In this document: positions 5,199-38,262 of the stretch, piece after piece
Numbering within the stretch: the first letter of the stretch is position 1
Layout: every line of letters begins with the position of its first letter
NCBI GenBank assembly: GCA_001789745.1
Contig: MGAN01000008.1
Location: 28,624 to 66,885, forward strand
Origin: Candidatus Roizmanbacteria bacterium RIFCSPLOWO2_01_FULL_40_13
Lineage (GTDB): Bacteria; Patescibacteriota; Microgenomatia; UBA1406; GWC2-37-13
Length of the DNA: 38,262 nt
Direction of reading: 5' to 3'
The notes under the pieces: generated by a model
Database searches by the model: none
Seen by the model: only the letters and a program-made list of their open reading frames with translations
Told to the model about the DNA's origin: nothing
Translations under genes and position numbers: made by a program

Positions 5199-5221
5199 GG
5201 AGATCTTTTAGGAATTAAAAT

Positions 5222-5530: not shown

Positions 5531-5551
5531 AATTTAAAAGTGCTAAAAATA

Positions 5552-5655
5552 TGATGCTGATCTACGGATTCCATGCGGATCACCGGATATGCAGATTGAA
5601 TATCCGTAAAATCCGAACATCCGTATCATCCGAATAAGATCCGTAATCCGCATCA
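5552..5655. repeat. CGGAT/ATCCG palindromic repeat, copy 1 (tuf-rpsJ spacer)
   Basis: The left half is rich in CGGAT (CTACGGATTCC, TGCGGATCACCGGATATG) and the right half in the complement ATCCG (ATATCCGTAAAATCCG, GATCCGTAATCCGCATCA), so the segment can fold back on itself. The outer arm even covers the tuf stop codon. A second copy with the same composition lies between argS and radA (29490-29590). Function unknown. Confidence 0.65.
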
Positions 5656-6837
5656 CTTAACGATTTTTGTCACTACTCCGGCGCCCACTGTGTGCCCGCC
5701 TTCTCTTATTGCAAATTTCAATCCTTCTTCCATAGCAACCGGGTAAATCAGTTTAGCCGAAATCTTGACGTTGTCTCCCGGCATTACCATCTCCACTCCT
5801 GATGGAAGCTTAAGCTCTCCTGTCACATCTGTCGTGCCGATATAAAACTGTGGTCTGTAACCGTTGAAAAATGGAGTATGTCGTCCACCTTCTTCTTTGG
5901 TTAAAACATAAATCTCCGCTTCAAATTCGGAGTGTGGAGTAATGCTGCCCGGCTTGGCCAATACTTGTCCGCGCTGCACATCCTCTTTTTCAATACCCCT
6001 AAGCAGCAGTCCGACATTGTCTCCTGCTCTTGTCTCATCAAGGGTTTTTCTGAACATCTCAATTCCGGTGACTACCGTTTTTTTAGTCGCTTTAAGACCT
6101 ACTATTTCTATTTCTTCGTTTACTTTTAGAGTACCCCTGCCAACTCTTCCTGTCACAACCGTCCCTCTACCTTGAATCGTAAATACATCTTCAATCGGCA
6201 TGAGGAATGGCTTATCTACATCACGTTTTGGTTCTGGTATATTTTCGTCTACGGCTTTGACTAGCTCCTCGATGCTTTTCATAGCTTCCGCATCGTCCTG
6301 CAGAGCCTTAAGAGCAGAGCCTTTGATCACGGGTATTTTATCACCCGGAAATTTATATTTGGTGAGCAGATCCCTAACCTCCATCTCAACCAGGTCCAGA
6401 AGTTCTTTATCCTGAACCATATCGGTCTTGTTGAGAAAGACAACAATTGCTGGGACGTTTACCTGCCTGGCCAATAAGATATGTTCTCTGGTTTGGGGCA
6501 TTGGTCCGTCTGGAGCGGATACTACCAGAATCGCGCCATCCATTTGGGCGGCGCCGGTAATCATATTTTTAATGTAGTCTGCGTGCCCCGGTGCATCAAT
6601 ATGGGCATAGTGTCTTTTTTCAGTTTCGTATTCGGAGTGGTGAAGATTGATGGTAACTCCCCGCGCTTTCTCTTCTGGAGCTTTATCTATCTCCTCATAC
6701 TTTAAGAATTTGGCCATTCCTTTCTTGGAAAGCACATAATGAATGGCTGAAGTTAAAGTGGTTTTTCCATGATCCACATGACCGATGGTACCAATGTTTA
6801 AATGGGGTTTGTCTCTTTTAAATACTCCGGTAGCCAT
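5653..6837 (-). CDS. tuf: Elongation factor Tu
   Basis: EF-Tu delivers aminoacyl-tRNA to the ribosome as a GTP complex. The 394-residue protein has the P-loop GHVDHGKT (residues 19-26), the switch I region with [13 protein letters not shown], the G3 motif as DAPGHADY (the usual Cys is Ala), and G4 NKTDMV. Domains 2 and 3 follow with [12 protein letters not shown] and [16 protein letters not shown], ending in [13 protein letters not shown]. Placement upstream of rpsJ matches the common str-S10 order, though rpsL, rpsG and fusA are not adjacent here; the gene beyond tuf is the divergent helicase. Confidence 0.98.
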
Positions 6838-11897: not shown

Positions 11898-12001
11898 TAT
11901 ACCCATCTTAGTTGATTTTGCAAATTGTCAACTAAAGTTATCTTATCAAATCAACTAAGGAGGGGTATATACTGATTGCGATTTCAATTAATAGAAGTAT
12001 A
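11898..12001 (+). repeat. Two-hairpin TATACCC element, copy R1
   Basis: The first hairpin (11898-11969) has near-complementary arms, TATACCCATCTTAGTTGATTT against AAATCAACTAAGGAGGGGTATA. The second (11968-12001) runs TATACTGATTG to GAAGTATA. The whole is 104 bases. Copy R2 (22858-22962) is nearly identical; R3 (25465-25568) and R4 (31596-31698, reversed) keep ends, size and two-hairpin layout but differ inside. It stops 13 bases before the ATG of the downstream glycosyltransferase. Confidence 0.8.
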
Positions 12002-17087: not shown

Positions 17088-18278
17088 ATGAAGTATTTTA
17101 TCAAGACCTTCGGTTGCCAGCAAAACAAAGCCGACTCCGAAAGGATCTCGGCGGCTTTTAAGGCGCGGGGAATGAAGCAGGCCCGAGGATATTCTGACGC
17201 TGACTATGTCATCATCAATACCTGCATGATACGTGAATCCGCTGAGAATCGAGTCTATGGACTGGTAAATAATCTGGCCAAATTAAAATCCAACGGTAAG
17301 CAGCTCAAAATCATTGTCACAGGATGTATGGTGGGGTTGGCATTTAGAGATAAAACAGGGAAATATTTGCAAAAAGTCCGGCGGTCTATGCCTGCGGTTG
17401 ACGAATTTATGCCGATCGAAGAGGTTGGGTTCGACAATCCACCGGTTAGACAAGATCGGGAAAACGCCTGGGTGCCAATTTCCAACGGTTGCAACAATTT
17501 TTGCACTTTTTGCGTAGTTCCCTTCACCCGCGGCCGTGAGATCAGCCGATCATTTAAGGATATCATTGCCGAATGCCTGCATCTAAAACTAAAAGGATAT
17601 AAAAATATAACGCTCTTGGGTCAAAATGTTAACTCTTACGGGGCTGATTTATTACTGCCCTCCTCCGTCATCCCGAACAAAGTGAGGGATCTAGCGACCG
17701 AAGGGAGCGCCAAAATAACATATTTTCAAAACGCAAAACTTTCAACCAATTTTAAACCAGTTTACGTCAAACATCTGGGTCGATACCGCATCCCGACACT
17801 TTTTCCTTACCTGCTTGAGGAAGTAGCCGAAATGGGGTTCAAAAAGGTCGACTTTATCTCTTCAAATCCCTGGGATTTCTCCGACCAACTGATCGATGTT
17901 ATCGCCAGAAATAAAAATATAACGCGAACCATTCATCTTCCAGTCCAATCGGGAGACGACAAAGTCCTTCGCCGCATGAATAGATGGTATACCCGCAACG
18001 AGTATCTAAAGCTGGTCGCGAATTTAAAACTGAAAATTAAAAACTTAGAACTAACAACAGATATTATTGTTGGATTTTGTGGAGAATCCGATGAAGAATT
18101 CAACAACACTGTCAAATTGGTCAATGAAGTGGGGTTTAATAAAGCCTATATCTCCATGTATTCTTCTCGACCTATGACTGCAGCAACCAAAGTTCTAAAA
18201 GACGATATTCCACATGAAGTAAAAAAACACCGCTGGCAAATACTTGAAAATTCAATCAACAAATATCAGTATAATTGA
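17088..18278 (+). CDS. miaB: tRNA methylthiotransferase MiaB, lacking TRAM and carrying a repeat-derived insert
   Basis: MiaB is a radical-SAM enzyme adding a methylthio group to i6A37 of tRNA. The UPF0004 domain shows KTFGCQQNKADSERI and NTCMIRESAENRVYG; the SAM cluster motif is CNNFCTFC followed by VVPFTRGRE; LLGQNVNSYG and HLPVQSGDDKVLRRMNR are also MiaB-like. Two oddities: between NVNSYGADL and FPYLLEEVAEM lie about 50 residues where most MiaB have 10-15, starting with SSVIPNKVRDLATEGS encoded by a GTCATCC-type repeat. The protein ends at residue 396 (ENSINKYQYN), where others continue with the TRAM RNA-binding domain. Frame is open throughout. A TATGAT box lies five bases before the ATG. 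Confidence 0.9.
   Translation: MKYFIKTFGCQQNKADSERISAAFKARGMKQARGYSDADYVIINTCMIRESAENRVYGLVNNLAKLKSNGKQLKIIVTGCMVGLAFRDKTGKYLQKVRRSMPAVDEFMPIEEVGFDNPPVRQDRENAWVPISNGCNNFCTFCVVPFTRGREISRSFKDIIAECLHLKLKGYKNITLLGQNVNSYGADLLLPSSVIPNKVRDLATEGSAKITYFQNAKLSTNFKPVYVKHLGRYRIPTLFPYLLEEVAEMGFKKVDFISSNPWDFSDQLIDVIARNKNITRTIHLPVQSGDDKVLRRMNRWYTRNEYLKLVANLKLKIKNLELTTDIIVGFCGESDEEFNNTVKLVNEVGFNKAYISMYSSRPMTAATKVLKDDIPHEVKKHRWQILENSINKYQYN
17667..17692 (+). repeat. GTCATCC-type repeat inside miaB
   Basis: The 26 bases from GTCATCCCGAAC to GAGGGATCT match the left part of the dispersed GTCATCC family (11701-11777, 22832-22857). It is read in frame as VIPNKVRDL. Confidence 0.65.
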
Positions 18279-18300: not shown

Positions 18301-20850
18301 TCAATTGCTCATTTTATTTTTATTTGCAAATCTCGAATTAACTCTTAACGTCTCCAATGCTTGGTCAATACTTCTCGCAAGACCTTGAGGTGTATTTTTA
18401 CTTAATAAAACTTCAACTTCTTTTTCTCTTCCAACTCCACAAATTGGTACTATTACCTGAAGAATTCGGCGAAGGAGCATGTTTGCCAATCCGCCTGCCC
18501 TTTGCAATAATAGCGGCCATGTTTCTACAAACCAACTGATAGCGATTTCTTTTGCTTGAGGATTTTTGGCTATGGAACTAATCGCATATGGTAAAAATGC
18601 AAATGGAACCTCTTTATCAAGTGAAAATTTCAGCGCCGCCTTAATCAATTTTTTATTTCTTGTATAACCAAGCGCCATAAGCATTTTTACCTTTTCTTCC
18701 TGTACTTCGGAATCCATGTAAAAATTTTTAATAATAGAGTAATTTTCATCGCTAAAGCTTACCGAAGAAGAATAAACCACGGCTCTTAAATCAGAATGTA
18801 GCGATCTTTCTTCTTTTAAATATTGCGTAAACTTTTTGTTTATAAACTCTTTTGCATCATTGTCCTCAAACAAACTAAGCGATGATAAGGCGGTAGATCT
18901 TAAGTATGTATCAACTACTGCTTCGCTTTTTTGCGGCTCATATCCTACCTTACCCAAGGCTCTGTTGGATAACAATGTCGCTAATTTTCTTGAAATATCA
19001 TCACCTGCGAGTAAATTAATTCTGGTTAGCTTTGCGATTAAATAATGCAAGACAACGCTTGATTTTTCTCCAGCATAATATATATCGATATATTGATACA
19101 GTTCGGACAAATTTTTTTTACCGGTTAAAATTAAGGCAAATAAATCGTGTATCATGCCCAACTTTTCCTGGTCGTTCAAAAATTGAATATTTTGTCCCAA
19201 TTTTCTAAGAAGATCTTTTGCATAATCAGTGATAAAAAAATTGGAATAGTTTTTATTTAGATTTATGTATTCGATATCTCCAGTAGTTTCAATCTTCATT
19301 TCCTTCTTATCTAAAAGATTTGTACCATCCAATCCACGGCCGTTGCCAAGATGGTAAGGTATAATCCATTTTTGTTTCAGATCTGCGTCTCCTTTTTCAA
19401 ATAAAAATCTCGACTGTTCTAAATCAATAACATTATTTCTCAATTCAACCTTAACTTTGGGAAAACCTACTTGATTTATAAAGCTCTGCATAATTTTGAC
19501 AACGGGTTTATCCGATACGGATTTCAATGAACTCCATAGATCTTTGGCCTCCGCATTCAGATATAAGAATCGTTTAATATAATCTCTCAATCCCTCTCTG
19601 AAACTTTTCTCTCCCAGGTATAGATCTAGCATCCGTAAAATACTGCCCCCTTTGGAGTAGGCTATCTCATCAAACAGTTCATCAAGCTCATTTGTATTTT
19701 TGACATTGACTTTAATAGGATGTGAGGACTTCAGACTGTCCAAAGCCATACCTTCATAAACCGTGTCTGCAACATATTGCGGCCAGATACTCCACTCCGG
19801 CCAAAAGTGATTGAGCGCTTTATTTGCCATGTAAGTGGCAAAACTTTCATTAAGCCACAGGTCATCCCACCACTTCATCGTCACCAGATTGCCAAACCAC
19901 TGATGCACTAACTCATGCGCTATGATTTCCGCGATTCTCTGCATTGTCGCTTTAGAACTTTTTTCCGGGTAAAAAAGCAGGGCGTTTTCCCGGAAAGTTA
20001 TCGCTCCCCAATTCTCCATTGCGCCCGAAGCAAAATCGGGTACCGCAATCAGGTCGAGTTTTTTTAAGGGATAGGGATTATCAAAATACTCCTCGTAATA
20101 CTTGAGGAATTTTTTTGCGCATTTTAAGGCAAATCTGCCGAATTTACTTTTCCCTGGTGTAGTTACAATCCGTAAAATAACATCCCTGTATTTATCCTGC
20201 AAAAACTCAAATTTTCCCACTCCCAAATACAGTAAATATGTCGACATTAAAGGAGTGGTTTCAAAAAAAACAATTTTTTTTTCATTTTGGCCTACCCTGA
20301 CGGAATCTTGAACTCCCGAGGTTAAATATGGCTTTGCGACGGCTTTAAAATGGTATTTTTTAATTCTTTTAGGAAGTGTGTTTGAAATCGATATCAAATT
20401 TTCATCAATGATTAAATTAACATTAAATGTAGCCTTATAAGCTGGGTTGTCTATACAAGGAAAGGCTCGTCTGCTATCTGCTGCTTCAAATTGAGTTGTA
20501 GCCAGATATTTTTCTTTCCCGTCTGTAGTATATTTACTTCTATAAAATCCGACCAGATTATCATTTAAGACTCCCTCAAACTCAAGATAAAGCTGAAACT
20601 TTCCCCTTTTTAATTCTTCTTTTAGCAAAATTATCAGCTTTTCTTCTTTTTCTATTGCCCGATATGACTTAATTAAGTTTTTTTTAGCAATTAACAATTC
20701 ACAATCAACAATTTTCAAATCTGCCGCATCCAGGATAATTTCCCTTATGTTTTCCTGAGTCTTAAAGTTAAGAATTTCCCAACCTTTAAAGGTAAAATTC
20801 TTCAAATCAGGCTCAAAAGTAAGATTGTAATTTATCGGTCTTATTGTCAT
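18301..20850 (-). CDS. pepN: Aminopeptidase N, M1 family
   Basis: A zinc metallo-aminopeptidase of 849 residues that removes N-terminal amino acids from peptides. The family signatures are clear: GAMENWGAITF for substrate N-terminus recognition, and HELVH (312-316) with the third zinc ligand Glu in WLNESFA (about 335). The C-terminal ERAP1-like helical domain follows. No signal peptide is seen, so it is probably cytosolic. ATG at 20850 was chosen over a GTG at 20868 because the latter lies inside the probable -10 region. Residues around 500 (WIIPYHLGNGRGLDGTNLLDKK) carry a short insert encoded by a palindrome also found in argS. It converges with miaB, 22 bases apart. Confidence 0.95.
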   Translation of the reverse strand: MTIRPINYNLTFEPDLKNFTFKGWEILNFKTQENIREIILDAADLKIVDCELLIAKKNLIKSYRAIEKEEKLIILLKEELKRGKFQLYLEFEGVLNDNLVGFYRSKYTTDGKEKYLATTQFEAADSRRAFPCIDNPAYKATFNVNLIIDENLISISNTLPKRIKKYHFKAVAKPYLTSGVQDSVRVGQNEKKIVFFETTPLMSTYLLYLGVGKFEFLQDKYRDVILRIVTTPGKSKFGRFALKCAKKFLKYYEEYFDNPYPLKKLDLIAVPDFASGAMENWGAITFRENALLFYPEKSSKATMQRIAEIIAHELVHQWFGNLVTMKWWDDLWLNESFATYMANKALNHFWPEWSIWPQYVADTVYEGMALDSLKSSHPIKVNVKNTNELDELFDEIAYSKGGSILRMLDLYLGEKSFREGLRDYIKRFLYLNAEAKDLWSSLKSVSDKPVVKIMQSFINQVGFPKVKVELRNNVIDLEQSRFLFEKGDADLKQKWIIPYHLGNGRGLDGTNLLDKKEMKIETTGDIEYINLNKNYSNFFITDYAKDLLRKLGQNIQFLNDQEKLGMIHDLFALILTGKKNLSELYQYIDIYYAGEKSSVVLHYLIAKLTRINLLAGDDISRKLATLLSNRALGKVGYEPQKSEAVVDTYLRSTALSSLSLFEDNDAKEFINKKFTQYLKEERSLHSDLRAVVYSSSVSFSDENYSIIKNFYMDSEVQEEKVKMLMALGYTRNKKLIKAALKFSLDKEVPFAFLPYAISSIAKNPQAKEIAISWFVETWPLLLQRAGGLANMLLRRILQVIVPICGVGREKEVEVLLSKNTPQGLARSIDQALETLRVNSRFANKNKMSN
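19323..19356 (-). repeat. GRGLDG-coding palindrome inside pepN
   Basis: A 34-base palindrome with perfect 7-base ends TACCATC/GATGGTA. On the coding strand its core is ACGGCCGTGGATTGGATGGTA, of which 19 of 21 bases match the element in argS (29179-29217), in the same strand sense and reading frame. Confidence 0.75.
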
Positions 20851-20900
20851 GTCAAGTAATATTATCACACAAATTGCTCTTCCTTTGCTAAAATTATTTA

Positions 20901-22749: not shown

Positions 22750-22831
22750 TATCTAATTTCTAAATAAATCCTAAATTAATTCAAAATAACAAATATAGTC
22801 AGCGCAAAACAAAATGACCGGTTTTGATAAA

Positions 22832-22996
22832 TGTCATGCTGAACTTGTTTCAGCATCTATACCCCCTCTTAGTTAATTTTGCAAATTGTCAACTAAAGTC
22901 ATCTTATCAAATCAACTAAGGAGGGGTATATACTGATTGCGATTTCAATTAACAGAAGTATAAACAACAAGATCCTGAAATAAATTCAGGATGACA
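22832..22996. repeat. TGTCATGCTG...AGGATGACA palindrome interrupted by element R2
   Basis: Left arm TGTCATGCTGAACTTG with CAGCATC (22832-22857) and right arm GATCCTGAAATAAATTCAGG with ATGACA (22971-22996) look like the two halves of one GTCATCC-family palindrome. R2 plus about eight bases sits exactly between them, in what would be the loop. Confidence 0.65.
22858..22962 (+). repeat. Two-hairpin TATACCC element, copy R2
   Basis: 105 bases, differing from R1 at only a few positions (TATACCCCCTCTTAGTTAA on the left arm; CATC for TATC inside; AACAG for AATAG in the second hairpin). Same orientation relative to flanking genes as R1. A partial third member of this subtype begins at 38243. Confidence 0.8.
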
Positions 22997-24527: not shown

Positions 24528-25517
24528 ATGACAATTTTAGTAACCGGTGGCGCGGGATTTATCGGATCTCATCTCTGTGAACGATTAATTAAAGAAGATT
24601 ATAATCTTATCTGCGTCGATAATTTGACCACCGGTTTAAAAATAACTCTTAATTCTTTGCTAAAAAATCCCCGATTTAAATTTATCAATCATGATGTCGT
24701 CAAACCCTTAAATATAAAAAGTAAAGTCGATGCGATTTTCCATCTCGCTTCCCCTGCTTCTCCAAATCACCATAGTAAAATCAGCTATCTTGCCCTTCCA
24801 ATGGCAACGATGTTGGTAAATACTACCGGTACTTTAAATTGCTTGGAGCTTGCTAAAAGAAATCATGCCAGGTTCTTGTTTGCGTCTACTTCGGAAGTTT
24901 ACGGAAATCCGCTCGAGCACCCTCAAAAAGAATCCTATAACGGTAATGTTTCCACAACGAGTCCCCGAGCTGTCTATGACGAAGCCAAACGCTTTGGAGA
25001 AACAATCTCCTATTATTTTTACCGAAATGAAAAGGTTGATGTTAGAATCGCTCGTATTTTTAATACCTATGGACCACGGATGCTTAAAGCAGATATGCGC
25101 ATGATCATAAAATTTGTCACACAGGCGATCAGCGGTAAGCCGCTGACTATCTACGGTAACGGCAAACAGACTAGATCGCTTTGTTACATCGATGATATGG
25201 TAGTGGGATTAATGCGATTGATGTTTTACCCAAATACCAAAGGTGAAATAATAAATTTAGGATCGGAGAAAGAAAACACAGTTCTACAATACGCACAAAT
25301 GATAATAAAACTAACCGGATCCAAAAGTAAGATCATCTTTAGTGAACCACTACCTGAAAATGATCCTTTGCAGAGAAGACCAGATATCAGCAAGGCAAAA
25401 AAATTGTTAAATTGGAAACCAAAAACCAGTCTTGAAATTGGTCTGCAAAAAATGATTAACTATATATACCCGTCTTCCTCCGATTTGCAGCTTGCCCAGC
25501 GCGAAAAAGCGGATTAG
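24528..25517 (+). CDS. UDP-glucuronate decarboxylase (UDP-xylose synthase)
   Basis: A 329-residue SDR enzyme of the UXS type, converting UDP-glucuronate to UDP-xylose. It carries VTGGAGFIGSHLCERL, HLASPASPNHH (the UXS form of this loop), ASTSEVYGNPLEHPQ, the catalytic YDEAKRFGE and NTYGPRM, then GNGKQTRSLCYIDD. It directly follows ugd, which makes its substrate. The last 18 residues (from YIYPSSSDLQ to EKAD) and the stop codon are encoded by the first hairpin of repeat R3, so the natural C-terminus was replaced or extended by the repeat. Confidence 0.88.
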   Translation: MTILVTGGAGFIGSHLCERLIKEDYNLICVDNLTTGLKITLNSLLKNPRFKFINHDVVKPLNIKSKVDAIFHLASPASPNHHSKISYLALPMATMLVNTTGTLNCLELAKRNHARFLFASTSEVYGNPLEHPQKESYNGNVSTTSPRAVYDEAKRFGETISYYFYRNEKVDVRIARIFNTYGPRMLKADMRMIIKFVTQAISGKPLTIYGNGKQTRSLCYIDDMVVGLMRLMFYPNTKGEIINLGSEKENTVLQYAQMIIKLTGSKSKIIFSEPLPENDPLQRRPDISKAKKLLNWKPKTSLEIGLQKMINYIYPSSSDLQLAQREKAD

Positions 25518-25568
25518 ACGAGTATATACTGAGTAACTCGGTTGTAAACCTTAAGTTATCGAAGTATA
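25465..25568 (+). repeat. Two-hairpin TATACCC element, copy R3 (overlaps UDP-xylose synthase end)
   Basis: 104 bases. First hairpin from TATACCCGTCTTCC to GGATTAGACGAGTATA with GCGCGAAAAAGCG near its tip; second from TATACTGAGTAACT to AGTTATCGAAGTATA. It matches R4 in reverse over nearly its whole length and shares ends, length and layout with R1/R2. It supplies the stop codon of the upstream gene and ends 14 bases before the next ATG. Confidence 0.8.
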
Positions 25569-27571: not shown

Positions 27572-27790
27572 TCTTGTTTAATTCAATACTATACCCATCT
27601 TGGATTAAAAACCAAATATTATCATTATTCCGGTGTCAGTGATGCGAATATTCTTAATTCTCATGGTATAAAAACAGTTAATCTCTGCGATGGTGTAGTT
27701 AACCCGCATACAACCGGCAAAAAAATATCAATCGATAGTTTGCTAAAAATGAAAAAAATAATATCTGCTATTATATACAGCAAATGGTAA
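27572..27790 (+). pseudogene. C-terminal remnant of an M20 (PepT-like) peptidase
   Basis: An open frame without a start codon translates to LGLKTKYYHYSGVSDANILN, then HGIKTVNLCDGVVNPHTTG and a final helix KKIISAIIYSKW before a stop. This matches the end of M20 tripeptidase-like enzymes: the (G)GSDAN segment, the GIPTVNLG strand, the metal-ligand His in VHTT(E), and the closing helix. Everything upstream, including the rest of the metal site, is missing; a TATACCCATCTT half-repeat lies at the break (27590-27601). The frame runs seven bases into argS. It is a gene relic, probably truncated by rearrangement at the repeat. Confidence 0.75.
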
Positions 27791-29490
27791 AAGCTCGTAT
27801 TCTTAATGACCTAAAATTTGCTTTAAAAAAAATCGGTGTTGGGGAGAAAGACGTGAGTCTTGAGCGTCCGGCAAATCCTGCATTTGGCGATTATGCAACC
27901 AGTGTCGCACTTAAACTCACCAAAGCTTTCAAAAAAAGTCCTCTTCAAATTGCTGAAGAGATAAAAAATTATCTGCCTAAGGATGATTTTGTTGAAAAAG
28001 TTGAGGTGATAAAACCCGGATTTATTAACTTCTGGATTTCTCCAAACTACTATATCTCACAGCTGGATAACTATACAAAAGGAAAGTTTTCTTATCCCGA
28101 CTATCAACTTGGGAAAAATAAAAAAATCATGATCGAGTTCGCCCATCCCAATACTCACAAACTTTTCCACATCGGTCATCTGCGCAATATCTCAATCGGG
28201 GAGTCGCTCGTCAGGATTTTTGAAGTTGTCGGCAATAAAATAATTCGTTCTAATTATCAGGGAGACATTGGGTTACATATTGCAAAATGTCTTTGGTATA
28301 TAAAGCATAAGATCTCGGAAAAAGAGCTTGACAAAATAAGAAAGAAGTCTCTTCATGAAAGGATGTTGTTTTTGGGCAAAGCCTACTCCCAAGGCCAGAT
28401 CGCCTTTGATGACGAAAACTTAAAAAAAAAGATAATAGAAGTCAACGGAATGGTCTATAAAAAACAGGGCGATATAATTCCCCTTTGGAAGGAAACGGTT
28501 AAATGGAGTTTCCAATATTTCGATCAAATTTATAAAAGACTCTACTCAAAATTTGATAGGCTCTATCCGGAAAGCGAATTTGCTGACAGAGGAATAGAAA
28601 TTTGTCTGTGGGCCGAAAAAGCCGGCATTCTAAAAAGGAGCAAAGGGGCGTTGGTTTTTAAAGGTAAACCATACGGCCTTGACACTCGGGTTTTTATCAA
28701 CAGTCTGGGTTACCCAACCTATGAAGGTAAAGAGCTGGCGCTGGCAGAAAAGGAATTTTCGGAATTTGGCGAATTGGACAAATGCATTCACGTTGTTACT
28801 CCCGAACAAAAGAGTTTCTTTAAGGTTACCTTCAAAGTAGAAGAACTGCTTGATGAAAAAAAATACAAAAACAAACAGTATCATCTTGCTTACGAATGGG
28901 TAAAACTGAAGGAGGGAAAAATGTCCTCGCGAACCGGAAATGTAGTTGAAGCAGAATGGCTTATTAATCAAGTCAGAGATAAAATTTTGGCAAAATTCAA
29001 TTGTGATAAAGCAACTGCCGAAATCATTGCCATTGCTGCGGTCAAATACTCTTTTTTGAAAAACAGCGTGTTCAATCAAATCGCTTTCGATATCAACGAA
29101 TCGGTATCGCTGGAAGGCAACTCCGGACCCTATCTGCTCTACACCTATGTCCGCACCCAAAGCGTTCTAAAAAAAGCTTATCACCGTCTAGACCACGGCC
29201 GCGGATTAGATGGTATATCTAAATTTAAAAAAGAGGAAAAAGAGTTGTTCCGGTCGCTGGCCGATTTTTCCGAAGTCGTCCATGAAGCTGCCAAAAATAT
29301 GGCACCCAATTTAATCGTCAACTACTTATATGATCTGGCGCAAAAATATAATTTGTTTTACCAAAAGCACAATATCTTGGAATCGGAAGGAAAAATAAAA
29401 AACCTCCGTTTACTTTTAACGAAAGCTACAGGTGAGATGATTAAAGAGGGATTATATTTGCTGGGAATAAAAACAGTTAACAAGATGTAA
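27784..29490 (+). CDS. argS: Arginyl-tRNA synthetase
   Basis: A class I synthetase of 568 residues. The N-terminal tRNA D-loop-binding domain precedes the HIGH motif in HPNTHKLFHIGHLRN (about 118-132); the KMSKS equivalent is KMSSRTGN (about 379-386), and the DALR anticodon-binding domain closes the protein (FSEVVHEAAKNMAPNLIVNYLYDLAQKYNLFY). Between SVLKKA and EEKELFRSL, in a surface linker, lie residues encoded by the GRGLDG palindrome (YHRLDHGRGLDGISKF). A TATTAT box ends nine bases upstream of the ATG. The start overlaps an M20 peptidase relic. Confidence 0.96.
   Translation: MVKARILNDLKFALKKIGVGEKDVSLERPANPAFGDYATSVALKLTKAFKKSPLQIAEEIKNYLPKDDFVEKVEVIKPGFINFWISPNYYISQLDNYTKGKFSYPDYQLGKNKKIMIEFAHPNTHKLFHIGHLRNISIGESLVRIFEVVGNKIIRSNYQGDIGLHIAKCLWYIKHKISEKELDKIRKKSLHERMLFLGKAYSQGQIAFDDENLKKKIIEVNGMVYKKQGDIIPLWKETVKWSFQYFDQIYKRLYSKFDRLYPESEFADRGIEICLWAEKAGILKRSKGALVFKGKPYGLDTRVFINSLGYPTYEGKELALAEKEFSEFGELDKCIHVVTPEQKSFFKVTFKVEELLDEKKYKNKQYHLAYEWVKLKEGKMSSRTGNVVEAEWLINQVRDKILAKFNCDKATAEIIAIAAVKYSFLKNSVFNQIAFDINESVSLEGNSGPYLLYTYVRTQSVLKKAYHRLDHGRGLDGISKFKKEEKELFRSLADFSEVVHEAAKNMAPNLIVNYLYDLAQKYNLFYQKHNILESEGKIKNLRLLLTKATGEMIKEGLYLLGIKTVNKM
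29179..29217 (+). repeat. GRGLDG-coding palindrome inside argS
   Basis: 39 bases with imperfect inverted ends (TATCACCGTCTA / TAGATGGTATA). The core ACGGCCGCGGATTAGATGGTA matches the pepN element at 19 of 21 bases. Its right end, GCGGATTAGATGG-TATA, also resembles the end of the first hairpin in R4 (GCGGATTAGATGGGTATA). Confidence 0.75.
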
Positions 29491-29590
29491 TACGGATTGC
29501 GGATTTTATTCGGATCATGCGGATATTCGGATTTTACAGAAATTCATCCGCATATCCGTGAATCCGCATATTATCTGCAGATCCGTATCA
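29490..29590. repeat. CGGAT/ATCCG palindromic repeat, copy 2 (argS-radA spacer)
   Basis: Left half TACGGATTGCGGATTTTATT with CGGAT units, right half ATCCGCATATCCGTGAATCC and CAGATCCGTATCA; the two fold back on each other. It has the same make-up as 5552-5655. It fills the spacer between the argS stop and the radA ATG and explains an apparent upstream extension of radA. Confidence 0.65.
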
Positions 29591-29595
29591 CAATT

Positions 29596-30888
29596 ATGGC
29601 ATTTTTTATCTGTACTCAATGCGGTTATGGCTCTGCTTCCTGGCTGGGGCGTTGTCCTAATTGTGGAGAATTTAACACTCTCAAAGAGACTCCTGCCTAT
29701 TTGCGTGATACCGAAAAATCAAGCAAAAAAGAAGAAGTTAAAAAGCTTTCATTTACCTCGCTGAATAAAATTCAGTCACTAAAAAAGTCCCGGCTGCGTA
29801 CCGGATTGTTTGAATTCGATCGGGTTTTAGGCGGTGGATTAATTCTTGGAGAAGTGGTGCTGCTTACCGGCGAACCGGGGGTTGGTAAGTCAACTTTGCT
29901 TCTTCAGTCATTTGCTCCGCTTGCTGCACTTTATATTTCAGGTGAAGAATCTGCCGAGCAGATAAAAGGTAGAATTGATCGGTTAAGATTAAAAAAGAAT
30001 AATTTCCTCTTTTCCGACACTCTTCAGGTTGAAGGCATCATTGATGGACTGGAAGAAATTAAAGACAAAGTCAATCTTTTGATAATAGATTCCATTCAGA
30101 CAGTCTATTCCAATCAATCTGACGGTACTCCCGGAAGCGTGTCTCAACTAAAAGAATCTGCCCTGAAACTGATTGGTGCCGCCAAAAGATTAAAAATCGC
30201 TGTTATTATTGTTGGTCATATCACCAAAAGCGGGGAGATTGCCGGGCCAAAAACTCTCGAACATCTGGTCGACTGTGTTCTGAATTTCGAAGGAGAAAAA
30301 GTCTCCAATTTCCGCCTACTTCGTGCCGGTAAAAATCGCTTCGGTCCAACCGATGAAATCGGAATCTTCGAGATGAAAGACTTTGGCTTAAGCGAAGTGA
30401 CAAACCCATTAATTTTTCTTGATCGGCTTGAAAAGTCAGAAGTTGGTAAAGCGATTGTCGGAGCTACGGAAGGAAAACGGTCGCTTTTTTTTGAAATTCA
30501 GACGTTGGCGGTTCCGTCCGTTCTTGCTATTCCCCGCAGGGTCGTCAAAGGACTCGATTATAATAAAGTCTTGCTTTTGCTGGCTGTGGTGCGGAAATAT
30601 TTGTCTCATCCTCTGGACAAATTCGATATTTATGTTAATGTCGTAGGCGGAGTAAATATTAAATCTACGGCTTCCGATCTGGGACTAATTGCATCACTAC
30701 TATCCTCTCTGAAGAATTTACCCTTGCCTAATAAATCACTTTTTATCGGAGAAGTCGGCTTGCTTGGTGAAATTCGCAATGTTTACCAACAGGAAAAAAT
30801 CATTAAGGAAGCAAATCGGTTGGGATTTAAAACCAGCTATTCGTCATCAAACTTATCTCACATAAAAATGTTAAAAAATCTTATTTAA
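29596..30888 (+). CDS. radA: DNA repair protein RadA
   Basis: RadA is a RecA-like ATPase that promotes branch migration during recombination. From the ATG at 29596 the protein has 430 residues and opens with the C4 zinc finger CTQCGYGSASWLGRCPNCGEF. The Walker A is GEPGVGKST, the Walker B region LLIIDSIQTVYS, and the RadA-specific KNRFG motif is present (AGKNRFGPTDEIG). The C-terminal Lon-like domain has no protease residues, as usual. An upstream in-frame start at 29497 would translate the CGGAT palindrome and was rejected. Confidence 0.95.
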   Translation: MAFFICTQCGYGSASWLGRCPNCGEFNTLKETPAYLRDTEKSSKKEEVKKLSFTSLNKIQSLKKSRLRTGLFEFDRVLGGGLILGEVVLLTGEPGVGKSTLLLQSFAPLAALYISGEESAEQIKGRIDRLRLKKNNFLFSDTLQVEGIIDGLEEIKDKVNLLIIDSIQTVYSNQSDGTPGSVSQLKESALKLIGAAKRLKIAVIIVGHITKSGEIAGPKTLEHLVDCVLNFEGEKVSNFRLLRAGKNRFGPTDEIGIFEMKDFGLSEVTNPLIFLDRLEKSEVGKAIVGATEGKRSLFFEIQTLAVPSVLAIPRRVVKGLDYNKVLLLLAVVRKYLSHPLDKFDIYVNVVGGVNIKSTASDLGLIASLLSSLKNLPLPNKSLFIGEVGLLGEIRNVYQQEKIIKEANRLGFKTSYSSSNLSHIKMLKNLI

Positions 30889-31595: not shown

Positions 31596-31698
31596 TATAC
31601 TTCGATAACTCAGGTTTGCGAATGAGTTACTCGGTATATACCCATCTAATCCGCTTTTTCGCTCTGACTAGCTGCAAATCGTAAGTAAGATGGGTATA
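31596..31698 (-). repeat. Two-hairpin TATACCC element, copy R4 (reversed)
   Basis: On the minus strand: first hairpin from TATACCCATCTTAC to GATTAGATGGGTATA with GAGCGAAAAAGCG near its tip, second from TATACCGAGTAACTC to GAGTTATCGAAGTATA; 103 bases. Closely similar to R3. It lies between efp and the RodZ-like gene, both minus strand, so its orientation relative to transcription is the same as R1-R3. Confidence 0.8.
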
Positions 31699-31716
31699 TG
31701 TTACATGTTATATGTT

Positions 31717-32293: not shown

Positions 32294-32320
32294 GTAGAGA
32301 CGAGTACATTACGTCTCTAC
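32294..32320. repeat. Perfect 27-base palindrome GTAGAGACG-N9-CGTCTCTAC
   Basis: Two perfect 9-base arms separated by nine bases, bridging the end of epmA and the epmA-efp spacer. On the minus strand it supplies the last codons (V-E-T) and the TAA stop of epmA. There is no U-tract, so it is not a canonical terminator. Repeats with GTAGAGACG arms occur in many bacterial genomes (recollection, not checked). Confidence 0.7.
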
Positions 32321-33349
32321 GGTAATTAATTTTATTTGCTGAATCGATTGCACATTTGCAAAGATCATCGCCAACCTCTCCAGTCCAATTGCTATCCCCG
32401 CACAATCAGGCAAGCCATATTTTAATGCTGTAGTCATCCCTTTGTCAATTGGATGATTAATTTTCTTCATTTTCTTCCTTTTATCCGCTTCTTGCTTGAA
32501 TCTGCTTTGCTGCTGCTTCCAGTCACTTAACTCCGTATAACAATCTCCCAGCTCTACACCTTGGATATAAAATTCAAAGCGTTGGGCTGTTCTGTCGTCC
32601 GGATTTAATTTAGCCAAAGCTGCAAACTCCTTAGGATAATCATAGATCAGAGTCGGAAAACCGCGTGTTCCCAACTTTTGTTCTACTTCAGCGGTATAGA
32701 TCTGTGACCAAATATCCTCATAACTAAAACCGCTGACTCTATATCCTTTTTCTTTGGCCTTATTGATAAAAGTCTTTTTGTCAAATAACTCTTTTTCAGA
32801 AATACCTGCAAATTTTTCAAAAGCCTCCGCTACCGTAAACTTCTCCCATTTACTGAATGAAGTTTGATTTTGAATCGTCACTCTGGCTTGTCCGAAGTCG
32901 CCCCGATCAAATCGTGACTCCCCGGAATGACGCCTTAATGAATTTAAAATAAATTGCAGCAACTCCAAAACTTCTTTTGCCAAATCCAGATAATCGGCGT
33001 TTATTTTGTAAAACTCCAGTATCGTAAATTCAGAAGAATGTAAGCTTGAGCTTGGTTCACTATTCCGAAAAGCTTTTCCCAGATAATAAATATTTCCGAT
33101 TCCCTCAGACAAAAGTCTCTTCATGAATAATTCGGGAGATGGTGTAAGATAAAGTTTTTGTCTTTTATCCAGATACCTATACTCTGTCTCAAACACCTCA
33201 AGATACGACTCGGGAATAAGTGAGGGAGATAAAACAGGCAAATCAACTCTTAAAAATCCCTTTTTCTTCATAAACTTATGCACCGCCTCTTCCACCTGAA
33301 GCAAGACTTTGTAGTGTATTAAATTTTGAGTATTGGATATAATTTTCAT
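32309..33349 (-). CDS. epmA: EpmA/PoxA-like EF-P lysine ligase with repeat-derived insert
   Basis: A 346-residue class II LysRS-like enzyme without the anticodon-binding domain, as expected for EpmA (PoxA/GenX), which attaches (R)-beta-lysine to EF-P. Motif 2 is FRNSEPSSSLHSSEFTILEFYK and motif 3 GIAIGLERLAMIF; QGVELGDCYTEL lies in the active site. Adjacency to efp supports this over a plain lysyl-tRNA synthetase. An insert of about 25 residues after LQFILNSL (RRHSGESRFDRGDFGQARV) is encoded by a GTCATTCC-type repeat and lies before KWEKFTVAEAFEKFAGI. The last three residues come from another palindrome. The lysine aminomutase EpmB is not in the window. Confidence 0.9.
   Translation of the reverse strand: MKIISNTQNLIHYKVLLQVEEAVHKFMKKKGFLRVDLPVLSPSLIPESYLEVFETEYRYLDKRQKLYLTPSPELFMKRLLSEGIGNIYYLGKAFRNSEPSSSLHSSEFTILEFYKINADYLDLAKEVLELLQFILNSLRRHSGESRFDRGDFGQARVTIQNQTSFSKWEKFTVAEAFEKFAGISEKELFDKKTFINKAKEKGYRVSGFSYEDIWSQIYTAEVEQKLGTRGFPTLIYDYPKEFAALAKLNPDDRTAQRFEFYIQGVELGDCYTELSDWKQQQSRFKQEADKRKKMKKINHPIDKGMTTALKYGLPDCAGIAIGLERLAMIFANVQSIQQIKLITVET
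32877..32931 (-). repeat. GTCATTCC...GAGTGAC repeat inside epmA
   Basis: On the coding strand the 55 bases begin GTCATTCCGGGGAGTC and end GCCAGAGTGAC, with GATCGGGGCGACTTCGGAC inside. Ends and composition match the dispersed GTCATCC family, notably 33363-33470 about 430 bases away in the spacer upstream of epmA. It is read without frameshift. Confidence 0.65.
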
Positions 33350-38177: not shown

Positions 38178-38262
38178 ATATAGTCAACGCAAAACAAAAT
38201 GACCGGTTTTGATAAATGTCATGCTGAACTTGTTTCAGCATCTATACCCCCTCTTAGTTGAT
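38178..38262 (+). repeat. Second copy of the composite repeat at the window edge
   Basis: These 85 bases match 22793-22877 with two mismatches: a GCAAAACAAAATGACCGG segment, the TGTCATGCTGAAC left arm and the first 20 bases of a two-hairpin TATACCC element. The element continues beyond the window. The rest of the spacer (38018-38177) holds an ATTAATTC/GAATTAAT inverted repeat and a CCCGCCTTTGGCGGG hairpin but no gene. Confidence 0.75.

Follow-up and report, generated by a model that had tools for sequence, protein, structure and literature searches.

Short palindromes translated in frame in argS and pepN of a Candidatus Roizmanbacteria genome, and HTH-Cas2-like genes as their candidate partners

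The window, by which we mean the whole stretch of 38,262 nucleotides analysed here from Candidatus Roizmanbacteria bacterium RIFCSPLOWO2_01_FULL_40_13, carries the same short palindrome inside two unrelated protein genes (G, C and L numbers below denote genomes, contigs and loci):

27784-29490, plus strand: argS, arginyl-tRNA synthetase, 568 aa, host gene
29182-29215, plus strand: argS palindrome, 34 bp, frame 0, codes HRLDHGRGLDG; sequence CACCGTCTAGACCACGGCCGCGGATTAGATGGTA
18301-20868, minus strand: pepN-like M1 aminopeptidase, 855 aa, host gene
19323-19356, minus strand: pepN palindrome, 34 bp, frame 0, codes YHLGNGRGLDG; sequence TACCATCTTGGCAACGGCCGTGGATTGGATGGTA

Compared on their coding strands, argS and pepN agree at 19/21 positions of the 21-base core ACGGCCGYGGATTRGATGGTA, the two copies share sense and frame, and GRGLDG is encoded in both; the sequences thus bear out the earlier note, which had described one palindrome in this arrangement in the two genes. 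Both are near-palindromes, with 12/17 positions paired in each. The 20-mer pattern of the element occurs in the window at these two sites only, each read on both strands, where 0 occurrences are expected (100 shuffles). Two details of the first description have to be corrected. The 'YH' that it placed in both peptides is non-homologous, the argS YH lying one codon further out when HRLDHGRGLDG of argS is aligned with YHLGNGRGLDG of pepN, and the argS site, which had been put before the DALR domain, is actually inside the DALR_1 match (residues 451-568), past the first helix-like segment. The pepN site has the Peptidase_M1 match (246-463) on one side and the ERAP1_C match (535-842) on the other.

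Several other repeats are present in the window. A dispersed, MITE-like repeat of ~105 bp, frequent in the genome in copies that are 92-99% identical, lies at 11898-12001 and 22858-22962, and also at L101, L103, L104 and L111. Further dispersed repeats, in direct or inverted orientation, are found at 5536-5656 and 29487-29606, the latter overlapping the argS 3' end, at 25464-25568 and 31596-31699, the former reaching over the end of an epimerase-like ORF on its 3' side, and at 22793-22877 and 38178-38262. In addition, SVIPNKVRDLATEGSA in the miaB ORF (17088-18278) and RRHSGESRFDRGDFGQAR in ORF 32309-33349 each resemble another translated repeat in a conserved protein.

The argS and pepN palindromes belong to a family dispersed in Candidatus Roizmanbacteria. 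In the window's genome (1.04 Mb, 21 contigs, 89% complete), a third clear copy, YRLTNGRGQDGN, lies at C11:23607-23640 in the gene for an SGNH-type (SGNH-hydrolase-like) lipoprotein, in the same sense and frame as in argS and pepN, and weaker or degenerate copies were found at C4:3055, at C16:4442 and at a lepA site. A match at C2:71731 was rejected as a family copy, being in another frame and probably native coding sequence. Across 96 genomes the strict pattern matched five, the window's genome included, all from one genus, with 0 control matches. A covariance model of 13 copies gave matches at E <=1 in 6/6 genomes of the window's genus, the weakest being doubtful, and at E <=0.02 a second genus (G014 and G042) was clear, with a few weak matches elsewhere. 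When 84,980 species genomes were searched with the exact pattern, matches came from three Candidatus Roizmanbacteria MAGs and one unplaced bin; the latter (L124), the sole match outside Roizmanbacteria, may be unrelated, and no HTH-Cas2 gene of the kind discussed below was found in the 4 kb examined around it.

We tabulated 52 copies in eight genomes. An open frame of at least 100 codons (ORFs were called mechanically) is overlapped by 34 of the 52, and 24 of those 34 are in frame 0; a few of the 52 sit at gene starts. The host genes, named from their sequences, include argS, pepN, tgt, lepA, recG, fmt and those for an M20 peptidase, the SGNH lipoprotein and membrane proteins. The frame 0 peptide is hydrophilic (YHLDHGRDLDG), whereas two membrane proteins read another frame, which yields a hydrophobic stretch such as ITILITIVINLVI. 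Carriage of the palindromes by phages or plasmids was looked for and none was found. This is a repeated palindrome family, members of which lie in unrelated protein genes and are translated without breaking them. The earlier note had suggested a mobile unit on the strength of two copies, and further ones do exist in the genome and its relatives; nor is the motif native everywhere, orthologues in the same family being without it. Its likening of the element to Rickettsia palindromic elements (RPEs) holds for the way of working, a palindrome translated inside unrelated proteins, but not as membership in the RPE family proper, the length and the ends being different.

Alignment with element-free orthologues from the same family shows that the element accounts for about +8 residues in tgt, about +6 in the M20 peptidase and, in lepA, about +7 in G005 and +4 in G014. 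In pepN, the element is carried by G000, G003, G004 and G005, and a native segment takes its place in G001, G002 and G006; carriers and non-carriers are equal in length (net change zero), except for G004, in whose pepN (L059) a second palindrome, TTCAGCCTGAAGGGTTTTCAGCCTGAAGG, is nested inside the element. The notion of insertion into genes therefore stands for the block gains at tgt, M20 and lepA, but pepN, with its equal lengths, offers no clean insertion. Among the orthologue comparisons neither an exact empty site nor a target duplication could be defined, the borders having been rewritten. Because residues have been added elsewhere but pepN shows zero net change, it seems that copies were gained as blocks, the borders of which have since been trimmed or rewritten.

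In other genera, palindromes of different types reuse the same protein sites. In the argS linker, G000 and G004 hold a TACCATCT-type palindrome, G001 and G002 a variant palindrome, G014 and G042 a AACCAAGTT-type, G020 a GACAATCTT-type, and G005 an unrelated palindrome. At another ORF site (G042:C25), the palindromes of G042 and G014 share a ACGATCGT core but are of different types, that of G042 being the AACCAAGTT type; the pair was accordingly rejected as an example of an empty site. The G014 stretches examined contained no match to the flanks of G042:C64 or C23. A 20-kb stretch of the contig G042:C64 (L366) has no DNA match in those stretches, whereas other G042 loci are ~80% identical to G014, and this contig may be a binning contaminant and carries no weight.

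Five ORF copies are common to G014 and G042 and were used for a divergence comparison. Third codon positions differ at 1/56 in the elements vs 185/630 in the codons around them (p 4e-7); with all positions counted, elements differ at 4/170 and flanks at 272/1890. Because third positions in these orphan copies hardly change, either the element DNA is recognised or the copies are rewritten, and coding constraint alone is insufficient. Among 49 distinct copies, arm positions 6, 7, 12-14 and 17 covary, and at positions 9-11 pairing is no commoner than for independent arms. Such a pattern suggests that a dimer-type double-stranded DNA site with subfamily-specific half-sites fits better than a hairpin. 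An RNA or single-stranded DNA hairpin was rejected as the conserved feature, positions 9-11 pairing no more often than chance would have it, though the covarying positions may reflect a stem.

Several copies are paired ~700 bp apart with a gene between them, which encodes a protein of ~200 residues with a PaaX_M/Cas2-like domain. The window's genome has one such gene:

C16:5212-5883: partner gene, palindromes at 5221 and 6102, TGCACGTGCA core

The protein matches PaaX_M (PF20803) at E 1e-18 to 1e-22, scores 18-28 bits against the NCBIfam PaaX equivalog, whose cut-off is 264.55, and is borderline for the Cas2 model TIGR01573 (22.5-26.6 bits vs a cut-off of 24.5); in comparison with PDB profiles it matches Cas2 chains (best E 0.002). 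Since the N-terminal half gives weak winged-helix-like hints only (TrmB, E 0.03-0.09), the 'HTH' in the label HTH-Cas2-like is presumptive and taken over from PaaX. The Asp in FDVP/FDIP is invariant in 22 partner sequences. The palindromes that flank a partner gene sit near its start and just past its stop. In family f1, a CGnnCG-core palindrome is present near the 5' end of 17/27 genes and near the 3' end of 18/27, against a background of 0.006 per 120 bp, and the palindromes tend to agree between both ends of a gene and to differ from one gene to the next. In a sample of the phylum, 44/287 genomes have such a gene, with up to 7 per genome. Matched palindromic ends were found for 38/67 partner genes (27/43 phylum genes and 11/24 family genes) vs 0/497 control genes (p 4e-41), by a criterion that misses diverged pairs and with many of the phylum loci coming from the same few genomes and thus being non-independent; three apparent control matches were partner-type genes themselves. 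Partner genes of different genera are found at conserved positions, among them one beside pth and galT and one close to ctpA and hisS, so the gene appears to be kept vertically and seldom to move. Frequent hopping of the gene unit was considered and rejected, the neighbours common across genera arguing against it. Like the reuse of sites and the conservation of the element at the DNA level, the partner gene had been missed by the earlier note.

Orphan palindromes tend to follow the palindrome type of the resident gene, as far as sequence comparison indicates. In the window's genus, TCGRYCGA-core copies were found in no genomes but the three in which the ends of the gene have a TCGATCGA core, and in G216 the orphans match the palindromes of its own units. 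The argS and pepN copies, with their ACGGCCGT core, represent a related and probably older palindrome type, because the unit of their own genome has a TGCACGTGCA core. No HTH-Cas2 gene was detected in G014, yet orphans are present, most of them inside ORFs, and none was detected in G002, which also holds copies.

From these observations, we give a probability of roughly 0.58 to the reading in which a palindromic element is spread by, or from, HTH-Cas2-like genes, with the palindromes in argS and pepN as orphan copies. It would be an analogue of the REP/RAYT system in which an HTH-Cas2-like protein replaces the Y1 transposase and the repeats enter ORFs in the manner of RPEs. The element would consist of two half-sites, with arms of ~13 bp around an 8-bp NCGRYCGN core, and each HTH-Cas2-like gene would typically lie between two palindromes of the type proper to it. 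As the putative agent, the protein would recognise and bind the palindrome, and cutting or copying of a strand by it would occasionally leave the palindrome at a new place, on the assumption that a Cas2-like fold can act catalytically outside CRISPR. Copies that enter ORFs would survive, and be translated, only where they are in frame and in a tolerant loop, and at old sites both arms would be rewritten, giving one protein site with different palindrome types across lineages. Several findings speak against this: no movement has been seen, the net length change in pepN is zero, the gene units are at conserved loci, the G014 orphans are without a detected gene, and the unit of the window's own genome is not of the argS/pepN core type. 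That there is a phylum-wide class in Patescibacteria, in which an HTH-Cas2-like enzyme spreads lineage-rewritten two-half-site palindromes that are translated in essential genes, is a more tentative proposition, to which we give slightly less than even odds.

The main rival casts the HTH-Cas2 protein as a PaaX-like repressor that regulates its own gene, with the flanking palindromes as its operators and the orphans as co-evolving regulatory sites, and with nothing moving. The domain is indeed PaaX_M, and conserved loci, DNA-level constraint and symmetric double-stranded half-sites would all be expected of such a system. However, it leaves unexplained why a matched second copy lies past the stop codon and why orphans are found deep within ORFs, where they add residues as blocks, and the 18-28 bits of the protein are far from the PaaX cut-off of 264.55; we regard this explanation as unlikely. 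Somewhat less probable again is that the element is a selfish repeat similar to RPEs and is mobilised by a different enzyme, such as Y1/RAYT, or by replication errors, its HTH-Cas2 link being secondary. Y1_Tnp genes are present in G000, G002 and G014, and the last two hold copies without a detected HTH-Cas2 gene, but none of the four Y1 genes found has a family palindrome within 800 bp, and one of them carries palindromes of another kind at its flanks:

L099 11040-11645 (G000:C4): Y1_Tnp-like gene, ACTCTAACCTCGTAGGTTAGAGT-type palindromes on both sides

The family, moreover, brackets HTH-Cas2 genes far above controls. It could also be that the palindrome is a host DNA motif, serving chromosome organisation, segregation or similar, which is selected at many sites and co-evolves with a binding protein. 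The third-position conservation in two relatives and the conserved sites with changed arms would be in keeping with this, but the sequence is confined to a few genera, with few copies per genome, and it is inserted in ORFs as blocks, which makes a host motif improbable. GC-rich palindromes do arise by chance, and the match at C2:71731 probably belongs to native coding sequence, but with 0 occurrences expected in shuffles and 0 strict-pattern control matches in 96 genomes, the copy census refutes a chance or native origin, which we consider scarcely credible.

A scan for strong palindromes over 430 kb revealed other, rare in-frame families. One of them, GAACCCTCAGGGTTCCGRGAACCCYGAGGGTTC (NPQGS.NPEGS), is present at L108:4241-4273 (G000), in a 1039-aa ORF that is probably ileS, and at L117:10147-10179 (G004), and it resembles hairpins near a Y1_Tnp gene (L106). 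A perfect 33-nt palindrome, GACGAATTCCAACCGCTGCGGTTGGAATTCGTC, lies in frame in a 314-aa ORF at L109:1359-1391 (G000), and tgt of G005 (L015) has a 29-residue repeat, GVEVLGIPAARSRGLSNPKRALTGKKLRQ, twice in frame in one protein. In G216, a distant member of the phylum, TTTCCGCCAGAGGCGGATCCGCCTTTGGCGGAAA-type palindromes inside ORFs (C4 201351, 323950, 341014 and 362441; L307, L313, L314 and L315) form another translated palindrome family, coding SAKGGSASGGK in two cases and other peptides in two.

In the literature, subscription journals and preprints being outside the coverage, we found no paper that reports translated palindromes from CPR bacteria, in agreement with the earlier note, which knew of none, and none on palindrome-flanked PaaX/Cas2-like genes. 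A candidate partner gene with matching flanks across the phylum makes binding, cutting and copying directly testable, and the rewriting of the same sites across genera does so for the turnover of repeat specificity. If the protein acts on the palindromes, a Cas2-like protein would have a role beyond CRISPR adaptation and PaaX regulation.

With PaaX repressors and CRISPR Cas2, the partner protein has the PaaX_M/Cas2-like domain in common, but it falls far below the PaaX cut-off, is borderline for Cas2 models and is encoded by a gene flanked by its own palindromes. RAYT genes are vertically inherited and kept in place. REPs are dispersed palindromes of 20-40 bp, some of them inside genes, matching copies of which flank RAYT genes as repeat-specific partners (PMC3733652). 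The Roizmanbacteria element is likewise a dispersed repeat whose matching copies flank a cognate, vertically kept gene. It differs in having no GTAG at either end (per-position counts) and in being symmetric, whereas REPs are tagged at one end; its partner is an HTH + Cas2-like protein instead of a Y1 transposase, it flanks none of the four Y1_Tnp genes found, and most G014 copies are inside ORFs. PARCEL (PMC2996958) is also a translated palindromic repeat, made up of intragenic repeat-protein units as opposed to the single copies in housekeeping enzymes seen here. RPEs, of which there are several families per genome, share with the element that short palindromes lie in frame in unrelated protein genes and are translated, but they measure about 100-150 bp (PMC10969869) vs 34 bp. 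Those of R. conorii end in CGTC, and they are among the CGTC-tagged repeats noted without a dedicated transposase (PMC3733652), whereas the Roizmanbacteria element ends in TACC/GGTA, comes from a different phylum and can be paired with a candidate partner gene. The element thus works like RPEs and like REP/RAYT and, on the features tested, is a member of neither, because length and the CGTC tag fail for RPE and the GTAG tag and the Y1 partner for REP.
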